Part shown: positions 225 through 43,944 of the stretch, in pieces | Layout: every line of letters begins with the position of its first letter | How positions within the stretch are numbered: position 1 is the first letter of the stretch | Source of the DNA: a virus | Reading direction: 5' to 3' (one strand) | Virus record (IMG/VR): IMGVR_UViG_3300042923_001760 | Location: 1 to 43,944 of that record | DNA length: 43,944 nt | Notes under the pieces: generated by a model | Databases searched by the model: none | What the model saw: the letters and a program-made list of their open reading frames with translations, nothing else | Told to the model about the DNA's origin: nothing | Translations under genes and position numbers: made by a program

Positions 225-2225
225 TCACACCAAAGGAACCTCAACACCGCCGGCCATCACAGACCACGACACGACCGGCACCTCAACACCACCAGCCATC
301 ACCGACCACGTCGCCGCAGTCTCCACACCACCGACCATGACCTTCGGCGCACCACCCTCAGGCGGGGCAGTTGTGTCGACGTTCACCGTCAACGTCACGC
401 GCTGAGTGTTCGTCGAGTCATACCCGCGGTACACGAGCGCGATCGTGGACCCGTCGTCCGTGACCGTGACGTGCCCGTACTGCTGCACCGCCGGCGACTC
501 GGGAGCCCATAGCCCGGCGGACCAGTCGTTCACCGGGTCGGACGTCTTCACGGACGCCCACTGGCCGAACGGTGCGGCGGCGAACATGGGGAAGCCGCCC
601 CACGGGTTGTTGGACCCGTTGTCGGCCGACAAGGCGTGCTGGTCGCCCATGAGCATGACGACTTGCCCGACCGCGGTCGACTGGATGTAGTTACCGATCT
701 CGGTGCGCTCGGCGTTGAACCATTGCCACGTGTCGTCCCCGAGGACGGCGGGGCGGTCGTCGATCCACGTGCTTTCCTGCACGACGATCTTGACGGGTTC
801 GTCCTCGACGAGCTGATCCTTGAGCCACGCCAACTGGGTTGCCCCGAGGCGTGTCGACCCGTCCGGTGCCGCGAAGTACCTCGTGTCGAGCACGATGAAC
901 CGGATGCGACCAAGGACGAACGAGTGGTACAGGCCGTTGCTGTCCGGGCGCGTGTACGACGGGAACGTCTGCAAGTGCGCGGCCCGGTTTGGTGCGGTCT
1001 GCGTCCCCGGGAACGACCCATTGTCGCCGGTGTCGTGGTCGCTCTTGGAGTACACGGTGGGGACGTTCGCCATCAACGTCTTCAACCCGGACAACTGGTT
1101 GATCTGTGTCGCGAGGTCGTTCAGGTGCGACGCCTGCGACGTCGACGTGTTGTCGGCGTAGTGGAAGTCGCCCAGGTGGAAGAACAGGCGCGGGTTACGT
1201 GCGCTGATCCTCGTGAACGCGGCCGACGATGTGGTTTCCGCGTAGGAGTGGCAGGACCCGAACGCGAACGAGAACGACTCCGCTGTGCCCGGTGTGGGCC
1301 AGGTCGTGAACGGCCCGTACGCCGACGTGGTGACCGTGCCGCCCGGGCCGGTCATCTCGACCCCGTAGTAGTACGCGGTGTCGGGGGACAGGCCCGTCAC
1401 GGACGCGCCCGCCGTGCCGGGCCCGTCAGTCGACGCGGACGAGGAGTACACGACCCCGGTCGTGAGGCCCGAGTTCGTCGCGACCTTCAACCGGATCGAC
1501 GTCGTGTCCGAGCAGCGCGCCCGGATCGACGCACCGGCCTCAGTGACCGCCCCGAGAACCGTGTACATGAGCGTCGGCGACGCAGCCGCCGCGGCGGGGC
1601 GCAACGCGAGCTGCCACCCCAGTGTGTTCAACGCCGTGGCCGGGGTCGTGCCGAACGACACCGAACCCGTAGACCCAGCTGACGCCTGGATGCCCTTGGT
1701 GGCGACCACACCAACAGCCTGTGTCGCGGTCGCCCGAGTGGTCCACGTACCGGGCACGGTCACACTGTTCGACGAGGACCCGACCGTGAGCCCACCCACG
1801 ACGAACGCGTTCGCAACCGTCGTCGTGATAGACGGCACCACGTTCGGGGTCGGGTTCGCATGGTTTGCCGTGCCCGCAACGTTCAGCGGCGACGTCGTGT
1901 CCACACCCCGGAACCTGGCCCACGCAACCGACCCGACCGTCGCAGCCGACATGACCATCGCGACCGCAGACGTGGACGACGACGTGGCCTTCCACAGAAA
2001 CACGGTCAGGTGCCGGTCCGCGGTCGTGAGCTCAGCCTTGTTGATCGCGACCGTCAGACTTCCGAGAGCCGTCCCACCAACAGTCGTGATGCTCGTGTTG
2101 TCACGGTGCGCGACCATCACAACGAACCAGTCGTCAGCCGCAACCCCCGCATCGGGGGTGAACGACCACGACGCGGTCGAGCTCGAGAAGGGCGTGGTCC
2201 CGGCACCCTCGTAGGTGATTGCCAC
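225..2225 (-). CDS. Tail protein with PhoD-like metallophosphatase domain
   Basis: 666 aa with a GTG start. Residues about 1-210 are a beta-rich Ser/Thr-rich domain, about 215-315 a fibronectin-III-like domain, and about 320-610 a calcineurin-like metallophosphoesterase of the PhoD alkaline-phosphatase/phosphodiesterase type. Metal-ligand motifs are visible: FGSCH, FHLGDFHYAD, SKSDHDTGDN and MLMGDQHALS. The C terminus has short near-identical repeats (SVMAGGVEVP). It is the last gene of the late operon, after the lysis genes and a tail fibre, so it is probably a virion tail or receptor-binding protein that cleaves phosphodiester-containing cell-wall polymers such as teichoic acids. The fold is well supported. 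The substrate is inference. Confidence 0.85.
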   Translation of the reverse strand: MAITYEGAGTTPFSSSTASWSFTPDAGVAADDWFVVMVAHRDNTSITTVGGTALGSLTVAINKAELTTADRHLTVFLWKATSSSTSAVAMVMSAATVGSVAWARFRGVDTTSPLNVAGTANHANPTPNVVPSITTTVANAFVVGGLTVGSSSNSVTVPGTWTTRATATQAVGVVATKGIQASAGSTGSVSFGTTPATALNTLGWQLALRPAAAAASPTLMYTVLGAVTEAGASIRARCSDTTSIRLKVATNSGLTTGVVYSSSASTDGPGTAGASVTGLSPDTAYYYGVEMTGPGGTVTTSAYGPFTTWPTPGTAESFSFAFGSCHSYAETTSSAAFTRISARNPRLFFHLGDFHYADNTSTSQASHLNDLATQINQLSGLKTLMANVPTVYSKSDHDTGDNGSFPGTQTAPNRAAHLQTFPSYTRPDSNGLYHSFVLGRIRFIVLDTRYFAAPDGSTRLGATQLAWLKDQLVEDEPVKIVVQESTWIDDRPAVLGDDTWQWFNAERTEIGNYIQSTAVGQVVMLMGDQHALSADNGSNNPWGGFPMFAAAPFGQWASVKTSDPVNDWSAGLWAPESPAVQQYGHVTVTDDGSTIALVYRGYDSTNTQRVTLTVNVDTTAPPEGGAPKVMVGGVETAATWSVMAGGVEVPVVSWSVMAGGVEVPLV

Positions 2226-19473: not shown

Positions 19474-20133
19474 TTAGAAGACGAATGCGTACTCCGGTGT
19501 CGGCTCCGGCCAGCCCTCAGCCCGCATATCCGATGCGGCCTCATGCGCAAGAACAGACGTCACAGCAACGTCAATCTTCTGATTCTGCGACGGCTTACCC
19601 AACGCATACCGCTCCATCGTCTTAGCGATCCGACGAGAGTTACCCACATGCGAGGCCGTGATAGGGCACCCATCATGCTTGATCAGACCACCAGCAAGAT
19701 CCGCCTCAAACCTGCGCAAAGCCGCGTACGTCGCATTCAAACGCGAGTTACCCGACATCTGCCACGGGATAAAGACCTTGTCGCCGTAGAGTTGCCCCCA
19801 CCGCTCAATCTCCGACTCCCACGAGATCTCATCACGAAACCCCGGGTCGCAATACGCACGCAAGACCGTGTACCGCCGAGCGAGCTCATCCCACGCAGCA
19901 TCAACCTCACCGCGCGGAATCTGCCCACCCCACTCCTTCGGATTCCAAATCGTCGGACGACGATCCGGACCATACCGAGGAGTGAAAATCAGACCCTCAC
20001 GAGTCTCAAGCTTGATCGCAGTCCAGTCATCATTCTCAGACCCGTCAAACCCCGCACACACACTGACACCCGCCGGCGGATTCTCCAACCACACATCATC
20101 GACGACCGGCATACGCACCCGCCCAAACACCAT
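19474..20133 (-). CDS. Terminase large subunit, nuclease half
   Basis: Up to 219 aa from an ATG at 20133, or 212 aa from an ATG at 20112 (MPVVDDVWLENPPAG). It carries the RNase H-like nuclease of TerL: the first metal site in CAGFDGSENDDWTAI, then RAYCDPGFRDEISWE and QKIDVAVTSVLAHEA near the end. It cleaves concatemeric DNA during packaging. It overlaps the ATPase half in a frame shifted by +1. No strong ribosome site precedes either ATG, so translation may be coupled, or the gene may be a single TerL broken by a frameshift. Codon use is richer in T-ending codons than in most of the ATPase half. Confidence 0.88.
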   Translation of the reverse strand: MVFGRVRMPVVDDVWLENPPAGVSVCAGFDGSENDDWTAIKLETREGLIFTPRYGPDRRPTIWNPKEWGGQIPRGEVDAAWDELARRYTVLRAYCDPGFRDEISWESEIERWGQLYGDKVFIPWQMSGNSRLNATYAALRRFEADLAGGLIKHDGCPITASHVGNSRRIAKTMERYALGKPSQNQKIDVAVTSVLAHEAASDMRAEGWPEPTPEYAFVF

Positions 20134-21205
20134 CCGGCAACCACGAACCCTGCCCATACACCAGGCGGTTACCGAAGAACCGCTCAGCCTGCGCAGGATC
20201 GCGCTGCAAGATCTCGGAAGCCTCAGCCTCGATCGCGTCCAGGTCCACCCACGGCGAACCCCGGTAGGCGTAGGCGTGAATCTTCCGTCGCGAACGCTTG
20301 TCCTGATACGACAAACGCTCGCCTTCGTCATTTCGCAACGAAGGCTCGAGGTCGGGGTTCCGGTAGAAGCGGAACAGGTCCTCAGACCCCGACTCCCACG
20401 TCTGCTGAGCCACGCTGTTCTCGGTCGGGTCCCACGCGTTCGTGGTCTCAATCGCACGCCCAGACATTCCCGCAAGACCGCGACGCTGGTCATTCGCAGG
20501 CTTCTCAAGCCGGTTCGTCTTCGTGTACGTCCCGGACTCATCCTGAATCGCGAACGTAATCGGCTGACCCAGGCGAGAAAGCCCAGACGAAGTCACCGGT
20601 GTAATCCGGTTCATGCCAGCGCCGTCCGGAGCCCCCGGAAGCGGGGCGACCTTGATCGACGACTCGTGGACCTTCATCAACTCACCGATAGGTCCCATAG
20701 CAACCATGTTCTTCAACGGGCCGTAAGTGTTGTCGACCTGATCCTCAGACGCAGCCATAAGCTGGATCTTCGGAGTCGGCCACCGCATACCCATCGGCTC
20801 GCCCACCTGATAGTCGAAGTACCAGCCGCAAGAGCAACCGTTCTCGTCGCACCGATACGCGTCCCCGGCTTTCGCCCACCCCGCGAACAACGCAGGACCG
20901 GCAGCCTCGAACGCCGTGATCGACGCAGCGAGAGGACCCTTACCCGTCTTCTGCGGCGCCACGATCATCGAACGGCGGTAAACAAACGCCTGCGACCTCA
21001 GCATCTTCATCGGGTCCGGGTTGAACGCGATACCCTCGCGCACCCGATAGTGGCTCGCCACGCAGAAGAACTGCCAGTCCGACAACTCGAACTCGGCGCC
21101 CACCGCGAAGCCGTCTGGGACGCGGCAGTGCTGCTTGATCCACCCGTCAGCCAGGTCCCCCAGCGTGGGAAAGTCGATGCGCGTCACCTCAGTGGCGCGA
21201 GTCAT
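20096..21205 (-). CDS. Terminase large subunit, ATPase half
   Basis: 369 aa. Walker A is APQKTGKGP (residues 83-91), Walker B is ITFAIQDES (216-224, Asp222-Glu223), and the coupling motif is AIETTNAW (251-258). This is the DNA-translocating motor domain. The sequence runs normally through ERFFGNRLVYGQGSWLP and then ends at a TGA just where an intact TerL would pass into its nuclease domain, which is found in the next frame. It starts 3 bases after TerS. Confidence 0.9.
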   Translation of the reverse strand: MTRATEVTRIDFPTLGDLADGWIKQHCRVPDGFAVGAEFELSDWQFFCVASHYRVREGIAFNPDPMKMLRSQAFVYRRSMIVAPQKTGKGPLAASITAFEAAGPALFAGWAKAGDAYRCDENGCSCGWYFDYQVGEPMGMRWPTPKIQLMAASEDQVDNTYGPLKNMVAMGPIGELMKVHESSIKVAPLPGAPDGAGMNRITPVTSSGLSRLGQPITFAIQDESGTYTKTNRLEKPANDQRRGLAGMSGRAIETTNAWDPTENSVAQQTWESGSEDLFRFYRNPDLEPSLRNDEGERLSYQDKRSRRKIHAYAYRGSPWVDLDAIEAEASEILQRDPAQAERFFGNRLVYGQGSWLPDGVWAGAYAGRR

Positions 21206-26299: not shown

Positions 26300-27670
26300 T
26301 CACCAGTCCGCGTCGATACCGACACCGGCACGCTTGTCAGCAGCGCGCGACATCACCTCAGCGGGAGTCATATCGGAATCAGCCAGGGTCGAGTACGCGC
26401 CGTTACGCTCAAGCACGAACTCGCCAGTCGGCCCGTTACGGTGCTTAGCGACATGCACCGTGAGGTAATCCGGGGCGTCCCAATCGACGCTCAACAGGAT
26501 CACAACGTCAGCATCTTGCTCTAGCGAGCCACTCTCACGAAGATCCTCAAGGACCGGGCGGCGGTCCTTTCGGCCCATCCCCTCGCGGTTGAGCTGCGAG
26601 AGAGCAACGACGGGTATCGCGAGTTCCTTCGCCATCATCTTGAGAGACCGCGAGTAGTCCGTGACGACGTCGCGACGTTCACGGCGGTCTCCACGGGCGG
26701 CGGGCATGAGGCCGATGTAGTCCAAGACCATGCCCGTGAGCTCGCCCCGGCGGGCGAGGGATCGGGCGTGGTTGCGGATCTGCGCGGGCCGCACGTCTGA
26801 CCGATCGTCGACGCTCAACCGAAGCTTCGAGAGAACAGAGGGGCCGAGCTCACGGACCCTCTGCCACTGCCCATCCGTCAGGTCGTGATGCAAGAGCGCC
26901 TGCAACGGGATCTTCGCTAGATGGGCGATGATCCGGAGCTGCATCTCGTGCTTCGTCATCTCGAGCGTGTTGAACCCCGCCCACCCGTGCTCAGCCATGG
27001 ACAGCCCAGCCTGTGCACCGAACAGGGTTTTCCCGACACCTGGCCGGGCGCCGACGATGTACAGAGCGCCGGGCTTCCACCCGCCGATCAGGTTGTTCAG
27101 CGCCGCCCACGGTGTGGGGCGGAACGTGGACTTGGTCGACAGGATCCCGAGGGTCTTGGCGTGCTGCTCCTCGAGGGTGAGGGCCGGGTTGGTGGACTCT
27201 GCCGCGGCGCCGTCGACCTCGGACCGCGCCATCTCGAACGCGTCCTCGAAAGGGACGTCGGCGCGGACCAGTTCCCGGATGCGTGCGCCGGCGGTGTCGA
27301 GTGCCCTCAGGTGTGCGGCCTCGACGACTTCCCGCGCGTACCCGCCCACTGAGATGAACGTTGCCGAGTACCCGGTGGTGGCCATCTCGATGAGGTCAGA
27401 CGCCGTAAAGGGTCGGGCGTCGTGACTGGCCATGCGCGCGAGGTGCGGCACCAGGCTTGCACCATCGGTCCCGCGCCCCGCCGTGTGGCGTTCGAGCATG
27501 AGCGCGTACAGGGCCCCTAGGCGCCTGTCGTAGAAGTCCTGGGGCGTGAGGGTGTCGAGCTCTTCTACGCCCCAGCAGCGGCCTGCTGCGTCGGCGAGGA
27601 TGGCGGAGATGAGGGTGCGTTCGGGGCCGATGAAGCGGGAGTCGTTGTCGGGGTCGTCGTAGTCGGTCAC
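26300..27670 (-). CDS. DnaB-like replicative helicase
   Basis: 456 aa from a GTG that overlaps the upstream stop (GTGA). The N-terminal domain (about 15-130) matches the DnaB N-terminal fold. The RecA-like core carries Walker A GARPGVGKT (207-215), then FNTLEMTKHEM, Walker B GMVLDYIGLM, and PVVALSQLNREGM ... RPVLEDLRESGSLEQDADVV. It unwinds DNA at the phage replication fork. The preceding gene looks like its loader/initiator. No phage DNA polymerase or primase is seen, so host enzymes are probably used. Confidence 0.93.
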   Translation of the reverse strand: MTDYDDPDNDSRFIGPERTLISAILADAAGRCWGVEELDTLTPQDFYDRRLGALYALMLERHTAGRGTDGASLVPHLARMASHDARPFTASDLIEMATTGYSATFISVGGYAREVVEAAHLRALDTAGARIRELVRADVPFEDAFEMARSEVDGAAAESTNPALTLEEQHAKTLGILSTKSTFRPTPWAALNNLIGGWKPGALYIVGARPGVGKTLFGAQAGLSMAEHGWAGFNTLEMTKHEMQLRIIAHLAKIPLQALLHHDLTDGQWQRVRELGPSVLSKLRLSVDDRSDVRPAQIRNHARSLARRGELTGMVLDYIGLMPAARGDRRERRDVVTDYSRSLKMMAKELAIPVVALSQLNREGMGRKDRRPVLEDLRESGSLEQDADVVILLSVDWDAPDYLTVHVAKHRNGPTGEFVLERNGAYSTLADSDMTPAEVMSRAADKRAGVGIDADW

Positions 27671-28350
27671 CGGGCCCCGCTCTCGTGTTCGCGTCGGCAC
27701 CAGTTGCGCCAGGTTGCGTCCCAGTTGAGCTTGACGCCCTTGGCGCCGGGGACTCCGTGCCAGTAGTCACGGAACTGTGCTGCGACTTGGGGGCCGTTGA
27801 GTCCGGGGCACTCTTCGAGGGTCCAGGATCGGAGCTCGGGGCTGGGTGTCCAGTCGTCGGGGAGTCGGGTGCCGCGCTTGCGCGCACCGTCTAATTCTCT
27901 CTCTCTCTTTCTCTCTCTCTGGGCATTGGGGTTCGCATCGACACCCCCTATGCGGTTCGCATTTCGGGTCGCATCGTCGTCCGGGGTGGAGTCCGCATCC
28001 GAGCGGGCCCAACGCGACGCAGCCCCCTTCGCCCCGGCCTCCTGCGCCTTCTTCACCTGAGCTGCCGACCGGTTGTGCTCGAGGTAGTCGTGGATCTGGA
28101 TTCGCCCGTCTCCGAGGTCGACCCAGAGGCCGGCGGCGACCAGGGCGTCAACGTCTCCCTGGTCGCCGCCGTACTTCCGCAGCAGGGTCTTGACGCGCAC
28201 CCCACCGTCCGTGAGGTGCTGCGCCGAATACAGGATCGATGCGGCGTGCAGGATGACGGCGTAGGGGCGGTCGTCCTCGAGGAGGGGTCCTACCTTGGGG
28301 TTGTCGAGGTATCCGACGTCGAACTTGGCGTAGGCGCGCTTGTCGGCCAT
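27667..28350 (-). CDS. Replication initiation (helix-turn-helix) protein
   Basis: 227 aa, MADKRAYAKFDVGYLDNPKV with AGGAGGG ahead. The N-terminal domain (1-100) is the winged-helix type seen in actinophage replication proteins beside helicases (YAVILHAASILYSAQHLTDGGV, then LWVDLGDGRIQIHDYLEHNRSA). A flexible charged linker (about 108-155) contains QRERKRERELD, encoded by a GA dinucleotide tract. The C-terminal domain (165-227) has WNWCRREHESG-like features of DnaD/loader proteins. Origin binding and helicase loading are inferred from context. Confidence 0.75.
   Translation of the reverse strand: MADKRAYAKFDVGYLDNPKVGPLLEDDRPYAVILHAASILYSAQHLTDGGVRVKTLLRKYGGDQGDVDALVAAGLWVDLGDGRIQIHDYLEHNRSAAQVKKAQEAGAKGAASRWARSDADSTPDDDATRNANRIGGVDANPNAQRERKRERELDGARKRGTRLPDDWTPSPELRSWTLEECPGLNGPQVAAQFRDYWHGVPGAKGVKLNWDATWRNWCRREHESGAR
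27896..27920. repeat. TC/GA simple repeat inside the replication gene
   Basis: Twenty-five bases of nearly pure TC dinucleotides (+ strand) with one TTT interruption. On the coding strand it is a GA tract in the linker of the replication protein. Confidence 0.9.
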
Positions 28351-28490
28351 GTCCCTCCTTCCTGGTGGGCTGCGGTGAGTGCGTCGAGTGCGGTGTAGTA
28401 CGTGTCGCGCGCGTCGGTGTTGTTGGTGCCGAAGAAGAGTGCGCAGGCGGCGTTGTGGAGGCGGCGTTGCGCGGTCTCGAGGAGGGTCAC
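28290..28490 (-). CDS. Small early protein (66 aa)
   Basis: GTG start overlapping the methyltransferase stop (GTGA). The first 45 residues (TLLETAQRRLHNAACALFF ... ALDALTAAHQEGG) look like a real helical protein. The last 20 run into the replication gene by 61 bases and are Ser/Thr/Pro-rich. Function unknown; the long overlap lowers confidence. Confidence 0.55.
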   Translation of the reverse strand: MTLLETAQRRLHNAACALFFGTNNTDARDTYYTALDALTAAHQEGGTWPTSAPTPSSTSDTSTTPR

Positions 28491-29146
28491 GCGGGGGCCT
28501 CCTGCTCAAGGTGCTCGATGAGCTGCTCGCCGAGGAACTGGGTGTAGGCGGGCGGGATCGCCTGGGTGGTGCCGTGCCAGGACGCCCAAGGCATGCCCAT
28601 CGCGTCGCGGGCCTCTTCGACGGTCTGGGCCTTGACGCCTCTGCTGGTCCCGTTCGGGCGGCGGGTGACGCCGTCCGCGTGGTCGCCGTAGACGCCGACG
28701 GGCACGTCGGCGCCGTGTGCGCACGGGAGCTGGACAAGGAAGATGTTCGACTCGAACAGCCGGTGACGGCGGACGCGGAGCCCGAACGACGACCCGCACA
28801 GGAGCGCGGGCTCGATGAGCGCTGGCCGCGCGCCGGCGACGTTCTCGATGATGTACGGCTTGCCCGTCGCGACGAGCGCGTCGCGCGTGGGTGGGATGAG
28901 GTCGACGTGGACGCTCTTGTCGGGCGTGATCGTTGAGTGCGCCTGGCGCGGCGGGGACGCGTGGATCGAGTCGAACTCGTGGCCGTGCTCCCGGACGTAC
29001 TCGATCGCATCAGCCTGGACGAACTCGAACGGGTAGAGCGGCTGTTCGACGATGTCGACTCCGACGACGTCGAACCCAGCGCGGTGGTAGCCCATGGCGG
29101 CGCCACCCTCGCAGCAGAACAGGTCGAGGAGTCGGGGTCTGCTCAC
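28487..29146 (-). CDS. C5-cytosine methyltransferase homologue lacking catalytic Cys
   Basis: 219 aa, GTG start overlapping the upstream micro-gene (GTGA). Motif I DLFCCEGGAAMG (8-19) binds S-adenosylmethionine. Motif IV reads ASPPRQAHS: residue 67 is Arg (codon at 28946-28948, CGC) where the family has the nucleophilic Cys (usually TGC). Motif VI ENV (101-103) and motif VIII RRHRLFE (126-132) are intact. Family members methylate cytosine C5 in DNA. With Arg in place of Cys this copy should be unable to form the covalent intermediate, so it may be a dead enzyme or a binder. The rest of the frame is undamaged. Confidence 0.88.
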   Translation of the reverse strand: MSRPRLLDLFCCEGGAAMGYHRAGFDVVGVDIVEQPLYPFEFVQADAIEYVREHGHEFDSIHASPPRQAHSTITPDKSVHVDLIPPTRDALVATGKPYIIENVAGARPALIEPALLCGSSFGLRVRRHRLFESNIFLVQLPCAHGADVPVGVYGDHADGVTRRPNGTSRGVKAQTVEEARDAMGMPWASWHGTTQAIPPAYTQFLGEQLIEHLEQEAPA

Positions 29147-29241
29147 TTGTCCTCCACTGGTGTGTGTCCGTGGATGGTGCGGTGAGTGTTGCGCCCGCCC
29201 GGGTCGTCGCGGTACTTGGCGCCGCATTTGCAGGTCTTCAT
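29143..29241 (-). CDS. Zinc-binding-like micro-protein (32 aa)
   Basis: MKTCKCGAKYRDDPGGRNTH, then RTIHGHTPVEDK. A CxC pair is followed by spaced His residues, like a minimal zinc finger. AGGAG precedes the ATG. It overlaps the RusA stop (ATGA) and its own stop overlaps the methyltransferase GTG. The tight joints on both sides make it a credible gene. Confidence 0.7.
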   Translation of the reverse strand: MKTCKCGAKYRDDPGGRNTHRTIHGHTPVEDK

Positions 29242-29600
29242 GGATGCTCCTGGATTTCGAGTCGGACGCGCCATGCACCGGGCTTTTTGGTGTCGGTGTC
29301 GCGGCGGAATGTGGGTCCTATGATGTGTTCGCTGTCGTCGTCGGGGAATATGCCCGCGTCGACTAGCCCATCGAGGGCGGCCTTGATTACTGGGAACGCG
29401 TTGGAGGGGTCTGCTCGTCCTGCGCGTGGGTATCCGATGTGCGCGATGATGTGCGCCCTTGTGAAGCGGGGGAGGCCGCTCGCAGCAAGTGCGGCGGCCT
29501 CCCTGATGCGTGCGTTCCTTTTGGCTTTGGCTGCCCAGTGGAGGCGGTCGTTTGCGGAGTGCCAGTCTGCGCGGCAGAGTTCGAGGATGAGCTCGGTCAT
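29238..29600 (-). CDS. RusA-like Holliday junction resolvase
   Basis: 120 aa, MTELILELCRADWHSANDRL. The RusA pattern is visible: an N-terminal HWAAKAKRNARIREAA helix, GRADPSNAFPVIKAALDGLVDAG (with Asp64 and Asp81) and FPDDDSEHIIG (Asp87-89), then a final VRLEIQEHP strand. It cleaves four-way junctions in replicating or recombining phage DNA before packaging. An upstream extension lies within other genes and is rejected. Confidence 0.85.
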   Translation of the reverse strand: MTELILELCRADWHSANDRLHWAAKAKRNARIREAAALAASGLPRFTRAHIIAHIGYPRAGRADPSNAFPVIKAALDGLVDAGIFPDDDSEHIIGPTFRRDTDTKKPGAWRVRLEIQEHP

Positions 29601-29794
29601 CGGAATGTGTCCGGGTTCCAGAATGCGACGGGGTTGTATCGCCGGAGGTATTCGTGGTCGTTGGCGAGTGCGTTTGCGACCTTGATTGCGAGGTTCCAGT
29701 CGACGTACATGCCGCGGATTTCTGAGTGGGGTCCGTAGACGTACCACTTGCGGCGGCCGGTGAAGGTCTCGAATGACTTGACGCGGAACCTCAT
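29597..29794 (-). CDS. Early hypothetical protein (65 aa)
   Basis: MRFRVKSFETFTGRRKWYVY with AGGAG ahead. Strand-rich N terminus, then a helix WNLAIKVANALANDHEYLRR. Both ends overlap neighbours by 4 bases. No known family. Confidence 0.7.
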   Translation of the reverse strand: MRFRVKSFETFTGRRKWYVYGPHSEIRGMYVDWNLAIKVANALANDHEYLRRYNPVAFWNPDTFR

Positions 29795-29994
29795 GCGATC
29801 TCCTTGAGGTAGGCGCACGCTGCTTCCCAGGTGGGGAGGCTGCGTACGGCGAAGTAGCCGTCGTGGCCAGCGCCATGTTGCTCGGGGTCGAGGCGAAACA
29901 CGGTCCAGAGGCGGCGCTTATGGGTGCTGAAATAGGAGAGGCGCACCCGGTATGGGGTGCGCCTCTCGGGCTTAGTGCAGTTTGGGCAGGTCAT
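29791..29994 (-). CDS. Early hypothetical protein (67 aa)
   Basis: MTCPNCTKPERRTPYRVRLS: an N-terminal CxxC, then a WTVFRLDPEQ strand and a helix TWEAACAYLKEIA. It has the same general plan (aromatic strand pair plus helix) as its downstream neighbour. Function unknown. Confidence 0.7.
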   Translation of the reverse strand: MTCPNCTKPERRTPYRVRLSYFSTHKRRLWTVFRLDPEQHGAGHDGYFAVRSLPTWEAACAYLKEIA

Positions 29995-31911: not shown

Positions 31912-32469
31912 TCAGGAGGCCTTTCGGGTGTAGTTCTGGGGGATGCCGAGTCGTTCCCACACGTCGAGTCGTCCGGCGCGTTCGAGGCGCTTGAAGACGC
32001 CGTCGGATCGCCGTGAGAGGCGGTTGAGGATGTCGGGGCCGGTGAGTCCGAGGTCGAGGAGGTCGATGATGTTGTCGACCCATTCGTTGCGGCGTCGGAG
32101 TGCTACTGGGGTGCGTGCTCGGGCGGTTGCGAATACGTCTTCGGCCTCGGCCGGGGTGAGCGGGGCCTTGCGTTCGCGTTTCTTGGGTGTGGCGGGGAGT
32201 CCGAGGCTGATGCGTCGGCGTTGGTGTTGGGTGTGTCCGCCGCGGAACCCTGCTCTGTCGCTGCCGCCCTTTCCTTCGGTGCGGAGTGCGTCGTCGAGGC
32301 AGGCCTGTCGAACCCATGCCGGGCAGCGCGCGCACATGGCCCGCGCGTACTCCCACTTGTCCCCACCGTCCTCACGCTCAGGGGGGTCGTAGAACGGGTC
32401 TTCGTCGGGGTTGAAGTCGGGGTTGTGTGCGATGCCTTTGCAGGCCGCTTTCTCGCGCCAGTCGCTCAT
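31912..32469 (-). CDS. WhiB-family transcription factor with extra C-terminal HTH
   Basis: 185 aa. The four Fe-S cysteines are Cys10, Cys46, Cys49 and Cys57 (WREKAAC ... AMCARCPAWVRQAC), and a GFRGGH turn replaces the usual G-hydrophobic-WGG signature. WhiB proteins bind a [4Fe-4S] cluster and control promoters with the sigma factor. Unlike the usual ~85-100 aa form it has about 100 further residues, including VDNIIDLLDLGLTGPDILNR and SDGVFKRLERAG, which look like a second helix-turn-helix. Confidence 0.9.
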   Translation of the reverse strand: MSDWREKAACKGIAHNPDFNPDEDPFYDPPEREDGGDKWEYARAMCARCPAWVRQACLDDALRTEGKGGSDRAGFRGGHTQHQRRRISLGLPATPKKRERKAPLTPAEAEDVFATARARTPVALRRRNEWVDNIIDLLDLGLTGPDILNRLSRRSDGVFKRLERAGRLDVWERLGIPQNYTRKAS

Positions 32470-42810: not shown

Positions 42811-43944
42811 TCAGGCTTCAATCTGGGGCATGGCGTGGGACAGGGCGAGCTCGGCCGCGTAGGCGGTCTTGATCTGCGCCTCGGGGAGCAGGTGCCCGTA
42901 CGTGTCGGATGTGACCTTGATGGACGCGTGCCCGAGCCGGTGTTGGATGGTGGTGAGGTCGGCGTGGGGGAGTAGCCACGCGACGTGACTGTGGCGTAGG
43001 TCGTGGATGCGGGGGCGCTTGGCGATACCGGACGCCTTGACCCACCGCACCCACCGCTGCCACATCTGCTGCTGCGTGATGGGGTGACCATCGTGCGTGA
43101 ACACCCAGTCGTCCGAGGACATGCCCCGTGTGTGGTCGCGGAGGGCATCCACGATCTGCGGGGGCAGGCTGATCGTGCGCCGCCCACGCTCCGACTTAGG
43201 CGCGCCCGTCTGTCGCGGCCCGGAAGACACGAACGACCACGTGCGGGAAATCGTCAGCGTCGGGGGTCGGTCGTCCAGGTGAAGATCCGAGACCTTGAGC
43301 GCGGTCGCCTCCCCAAACCGCATCCCGGTGCCGGCGAGCGTGGTCACGAGGGTCTGCCACTCGGCGGGGACGGCCGTGAGCAACTGTGCGAACTCCCCGG
43401 GGGTGAGGAACGTCTTCTCGCGCCGCTCCGTGCGGGGGATCTTCGCACCGCGGAACGGGTTGCGCGCAATCACTCCGTCTTCGACGGCACGAAGGAACGC
43501 GGACGATAGGAGCTGCTGCCGCATCTGGATCGAGGGACCAGAGAGCCCGGAGTCCTCGAGCCCACGAATGTACGCGGACACGTCTTGCCGCGACACTCCG
43601 TCGATGGGTAGAGCGCCCATGGGGTAGCCGGAGAGTTGGCGGTGGATGCGGTCGTAGACCTGGCGGGTTCCCTTGGTGATGCCGGAGAGGGTGTCGATGT
43701 GTTGGCGGAGGAGGGTGGTGACGGTGATAGTTCCACCGGGTGCCTTCTCGTGCTTCTTCGCGATCTCGCGCGCCGCAGCGCCCCCGAGGCGTTCGACGAG
43801 GCGCTTGTAGTCTGCGGCCTCGCGCGGGGTCTCGAACGCGTCGGAGCACTGCCTGCCGTCGATGCGAAAGAGGACGGTGTAGGAGGTCCAGGGTTCGGAG
43901 TGCCGCCCGTCTGGCTTGCACTCCCGCGTGCGGATGGATGCCAT
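42811..43944 (-). CDS. int: Tyrosine integrase
   Basis: 377 aa. N-terminal arm-type domain (1-70), SAM-like core-binding domain (about 72-165), and catalytic domain with Arg209 (GTGMRFGEA), probable Lys250, His314-x-x-Arg317 (HDLRHSHV), His339 (RLGHASIKVT) and nucleophile Tyr349 (SDTYGHLLP). It integrates phage DNA at attB and, with the excisionase, excises it. It is at the extreme end of the window, so attP, normally beside it, is not seen. Confidence 0.95.
   Translation of the reverse strand: MASIRTRECKPDGRHSEPWTSYTVLFRIDGRQCSDAFETPREAADYKRLVERLGGAAAREIAKKHEKAPGGTITVTTLLRQHIDTLSGITKGTRQVYDRIHRQLSGYPMGALPIDGVSRQDVSAYIRGLEDSGLSGPSIQMRQQLLSSAFLRAVEDGVIARNPFRGAKIPRTERREKTFLTPGEFAQLLTAVPAEWQTLVTTLAGTGMRFGEATALKVSDLHLDDRPPTLTISRTWSFVSSGPRQTGAPKSERGRRTISLPPQIVDALRDHTRGMSSDDWVFTHDGHPITQQQMWQRWVRWVKASGIAKRPRIHDLRHSHVAWLLPHADLTTIQHRLGHASIKVTSDTYGHLLPEAQIKTAYAAELALSHAMPQIEA

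Follow-up and report, generated by a model that had tools for sequence, protein, structure and literature searches.

The 43,944-base virus record analysed here (IMG/VR record IMGVR_UViG_3300042923_001760; this whole stretch is referred to as the window) encodes a homologue of the C5-cytosine methyltransferases (C5-MTases) in which the catalytic Cys of motif IV is replaced by Arg, a departure that probably reflects a real, recent and private loss of activity by a single T-to-C change in one genome. Head and tail genes of the siphovirus type are found in the record, along with an integrase gene at the right end, and the methyltransferase (MTase) gene is located between a replication initiation gene and a resolvase gene:

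26300–27700, minus strand: DnaB-like helicase of the same replication module (phrog_19, E 7e-74)
27667–28350, minus strand: replication initiation protein, adjoining the MTase gene (phrog_3926, E 5e-18)
28487–29146, minus strand: DNA (cytosine-5) methyltransferase homologue of phrog_363, 219 aa with a GTG start, assigned by homology, motifs and predicted fold
28946–28948, minus strand: codon CGC for Arg67 within motif IV (SPPRQ), a position occupied by Cys in every relative sampled, from the reading of the frame and alignments
29238–29876, minus strand: RusA-like Holliday junction resolvase, flanking the MTase gene opposite the replication initiation gene (phrog_34, E 3e-18)

The MTase frame is open and intact from the GTG at 29146 to the stop codon at 28487–28489 on the minus strand. 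The plus strand reads GCG at 28946–28948, so that the minus-strand codon (28948–28946) is CGC, and the translation around Arg67 runs VSRPRLLDLFCCEGGAAMGY...FDSIHASPPRQAHSTITPDKS..., with motif IV as HASPPRQAHST. The AdoMet-binding motif I (DLFCCEGGAAMG), motif VI (ENV), motif VIII (VRRHRLFE) and a motif-X-like C-terminal end (IPPAYTQFLGEQL) are all present, and only the Cys of motif IV is missing from this set. The protein belongs to the phrog_363 family annotated 'DNA methyltransferase', with homology over the whole protein (E 6e-33); no match to Pfam PF00145 (DNA_methylase) was obtained for it at E 0.01, a profile matched by 50 of the 61 family members in the alignment. As judged from its sequence, the protein is a homologue within the C5-MTase family, but not a member in the sense of an active enzyme.

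The AlphaFold model of the protein (61 homologues) has a mean pLDDT of 93 and a pTM of 0.90, and Foldseek matches it to the C5-MTases DNMT2, DNMT1, M.HaeIII and DNMT3A/B as well as the prophage MTase 3g7u (E ~1e-7), indicating a C5-MTase fold. The PPCQ of the family profile aligns with the PPCQ of 3g7u, M.HaeIII and DNMT2, such that Arg67 is placed on the Cys of M.HaeIII by the sequence profile and the overall fold, not by a residue-level superposition. The motif IV Cys is the established nucleophile of C5-MTases (PMC4802922), and its substitution by Ala in M.MpeI reduces methyl transfer to near background (PMC11347137). From this known chemistry of the Cys nucleophile, we strongly infer that the protein encoded in the window would lack methylase activity. 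A preliminary description of this DNA had likewise called it a homologue devoid of the catalytic Cys and probably inactive as a methylase, and is borne out on the same chemical grounds.

The residue at the catalytic position was compared in five homologue sets, for none of which motif IV served as bait, namely 80 viral contigs, 17 bacterial genomes, seven named phages, the single MTase of a sister phage (G001, IMGVR 3300042922_000339, with a capsid protein 95% identical to that of the window) and a further 80 viral contigs gathered from a mycobacteriophage family member. Cys occupies the aligned position in every set (80/80, 17/17, 7/7, 1/1 and 80/80, respectively), amounting to 185 of 185 loci, although sequences are partly shared between the two viral sets and some entries are nearly identical to one another, making the 166 distinct sequences the safer count. 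The residues flanking the Cys do vary among the relatives (SPPCP, SPPCH, SPPCT, SWPCQ, SCPCQ, APPCQ), whereas the Cys itself is invariable. Given that Cys is found in all five sets and is encoded by TGC in the four nearest relatives, the Cys-to-Arg departure is, across the sequences compared, far beyond the ordinary variation of the family. The earlier reading of SPPRQ for SPPCQ as a single transition from TGC to CGC is thereby confirmed, as is that of an otherwise intact frame and motif set, upheld both by the reading of the frame and by the conserved columns described below.

The same comparison bears on the proposal, also made in the preliminary description, that the protein is a conserved pseudo-enzyme, an MTase that has lost catalysis but would bind or shield particular DNA sites, leaving them unmethylated. 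The fold and the remaining motifs would permit such a role, and M.HaeIII C71S, which is among the Foldseek matches, was crystallised with DNA (3ubt), illustrating that binding can survive without the Cys; Arg, however, would take up far more room in the base pocket than Ser. Arg occurs in none of the 166 distinct relatives, and the sister phage retains Cys. When every viral contig in the collection was scanned for a motif variant carrying Arg, Ser or Gly in place of Cys, three matches were returned (L139–L141), all in reading frames devoid of MTase motifs and none an MTase, compared with at least 120 matches for the Cys version in the same collection. A clade-wide Arg variant was thus sought in the five homologue sets and by degenerate-pattern scans and rejected, with zero found; the homologue alignment suggested earlier shows Arg conserved in no clade, and loss of the Cys is shared by no group among relatives of up to ~67% identity. 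A literature search for phage MTases that naturally lack the Cys returned nothing relevant. We therefore regard a conserved dead binder as very improbable, and likewise consider it very improbable that a poorly sampled phage lineage has fixed a Cys-to-Arg MTase as a non-methylating, sequence-specific DNA-binding shield or regulator.

The rest of the protein is well preserved. Among 12 columns invariant across 184 relatives, the window MTase departs at one, Cys67, and this is also its sole substitution in the ~48 columns for which 80 relatives show at least 95% conservation; one loop Gly is absent, in a column that is gapped in 20 of the 80 relatives as well. A long-dead gene is unlikely, because further conserved sites would have been lost. 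Pairwise dN/dS values, which are rough since dS is near saturation, are 0.27 against L001 (IMGVR 3300042923_000773), 0.42 against L002 (IMGVR 3300042922_000554) and 0.33 against L122 (Leucobacter soli), close to the 0.25–0.35 found among these three MTases themselves, and indicate purifying selection on the gene. The window MTase has 16 private residues compared with seven for L001 and six for L002, in a test lacking a proper outgroup, which could reflect some relaxation.

The intactness of all other strictly conserved sites is also what would be expected of a functional enzyme, and hence of a consensus or sequencing error at one base, with the real phage carrying TGC and an active enzyme. The change is a singleton, consists of one transition and stands against Cys in every relative. 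The preliminary description had cited reads with TGC only as an observation that would overturn its claim; we treat a one-base error as a live alternative, with a real chance of being correct, albeit clearly a smaller one than that of a genuine loss. The contig shows no other sign of poor sequence: the genes common to the window and G001 align gene by gene with no frameshifts inside genes, and of the 93 capsid protein columns that do not vary among up to 23 relatives, only one differs in the window, by a conservative Ser-to-Ala change, which together argue against generally poor sequence. Two apparent frame changes relative to G001 proved to be gene starts rather than frameshifts within genes. 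We note that the reading frames compared with G001 were chosen for being open, such that the absence of stops in them is no evidence. A random error would rarely strike the single catalytic codon, but the finding was picked for exactly that. We consider it extremely improbable that the protein methylates by another route, using a different residue as nucleophile or acting on a different base. Nothing direct points to such a route, the nearest indication being that M.MpeI C135A retains activity on one cytosine analogue (PMC11347137); the Cys is unchanged in every relative, and no compensating change is seen at other conserved positions.

We thus favour a genuine loss, in which an ordinary orphan C5-cytosine MTase, encoded in the replication module of a temperate siphovirus, would have had its nucleophile Cys67 replaced by Arg through one T-to-C transition (TGC to CGC) in this genome only. 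Folding and AdoMet binding should be preserved in the mutant protein, which would nevertheless be unable to attack C6 of the target cytosine, and the phage DNA would not be C5-methylated by the Arg67 enzyme. The loss would be recent, given that every other strictly conserved residue is still in place; 'recent' refers to this lack of decay, as the nearest MTase relatives are only ~67% identical and the branch bearing the Arg change is long, and the G001 MTase is too divergent (44–48%) for dating the mutation. If the base is real, the gene cleanly captures an orphan phage MTase being inactivated by a single step; this would suggest that the phage can do without methylation in its present host, or even pays a cost for it. 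Knowledge of C5-MTases is unchanged by the finding.

The enzyme looks like an orphan methyltransferase because no restriction enzyme was recognised beside the gene in the part of the window's reading frames that was scanned. The host is probably an actinobacterium. The record starts exactly at the ATG of a 59-aa reading frame (position 1) and ends at position 43944 with the exact start codon of the integrase frame, with no end repeat, as if a provirus caller had cut at gene boundaries. The integrase, together with a beginning and an end exactly at gene starts, makes a resident prophage plausible; of the fresh loss in a resident prophage proposed earlier, the loss is favoured, being private and unaccompanied by any other conserved change, whereas the prophage state is plausible only. 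Elsewhere in the window, the terminase large subunit is apparently distributed over two minus-strand reading frames (19474–20541 and 20096–21205). Both match G001, likewise in two frames, and a separate 'terminase large subunit, ATPase domain' is annotated in Arthrobacter phages, on which grounds the gene seems to be split or frameshifted in a conserved manner. A PhoD-like phosphatase domain protein (225–2225, minus strand) is present among the tail-end genes and a WhiB-like transcription factor (31912–32469, minus strand) in the phage replication region.

Among known relatives, the phrog_363 phage MTases, annotated 'DNA methyltransferase' in Gordonia, Arthrobacter, Mycobacterium, Streptomyces and Paenibacillus phages, are homologous to the window MTase over nearly the full length, with the same motifs and a similar size (47–51% identity for the best named phages), but have Cys in motif IV in all sampled members. 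The closest homologues, the MTases of L001 and L002, are 67% identical by alignment and very similar in the C-terminal part, yet read SPPCQ rather than SPPRQ. An additional ~19 residues precede motif IV in L001:2986-3714, L002:2992-3705 and L122:2998-3699 and are absent from the window MTase, which, together with the very similar C-terminal halves, raises the possibility of recombination within the MTase gene. M.HaeIII, M.HhaI and DNMT2 share the C5-MTase catalytic fold and motif order with the window MTase, but are ~100 residues longer and, in their wild-type forms, have the catalytic Cys. The Cys-to-Arg protein is most likely a degenerate form of an enzyme whose family is well known, rather than a new kind of protein.
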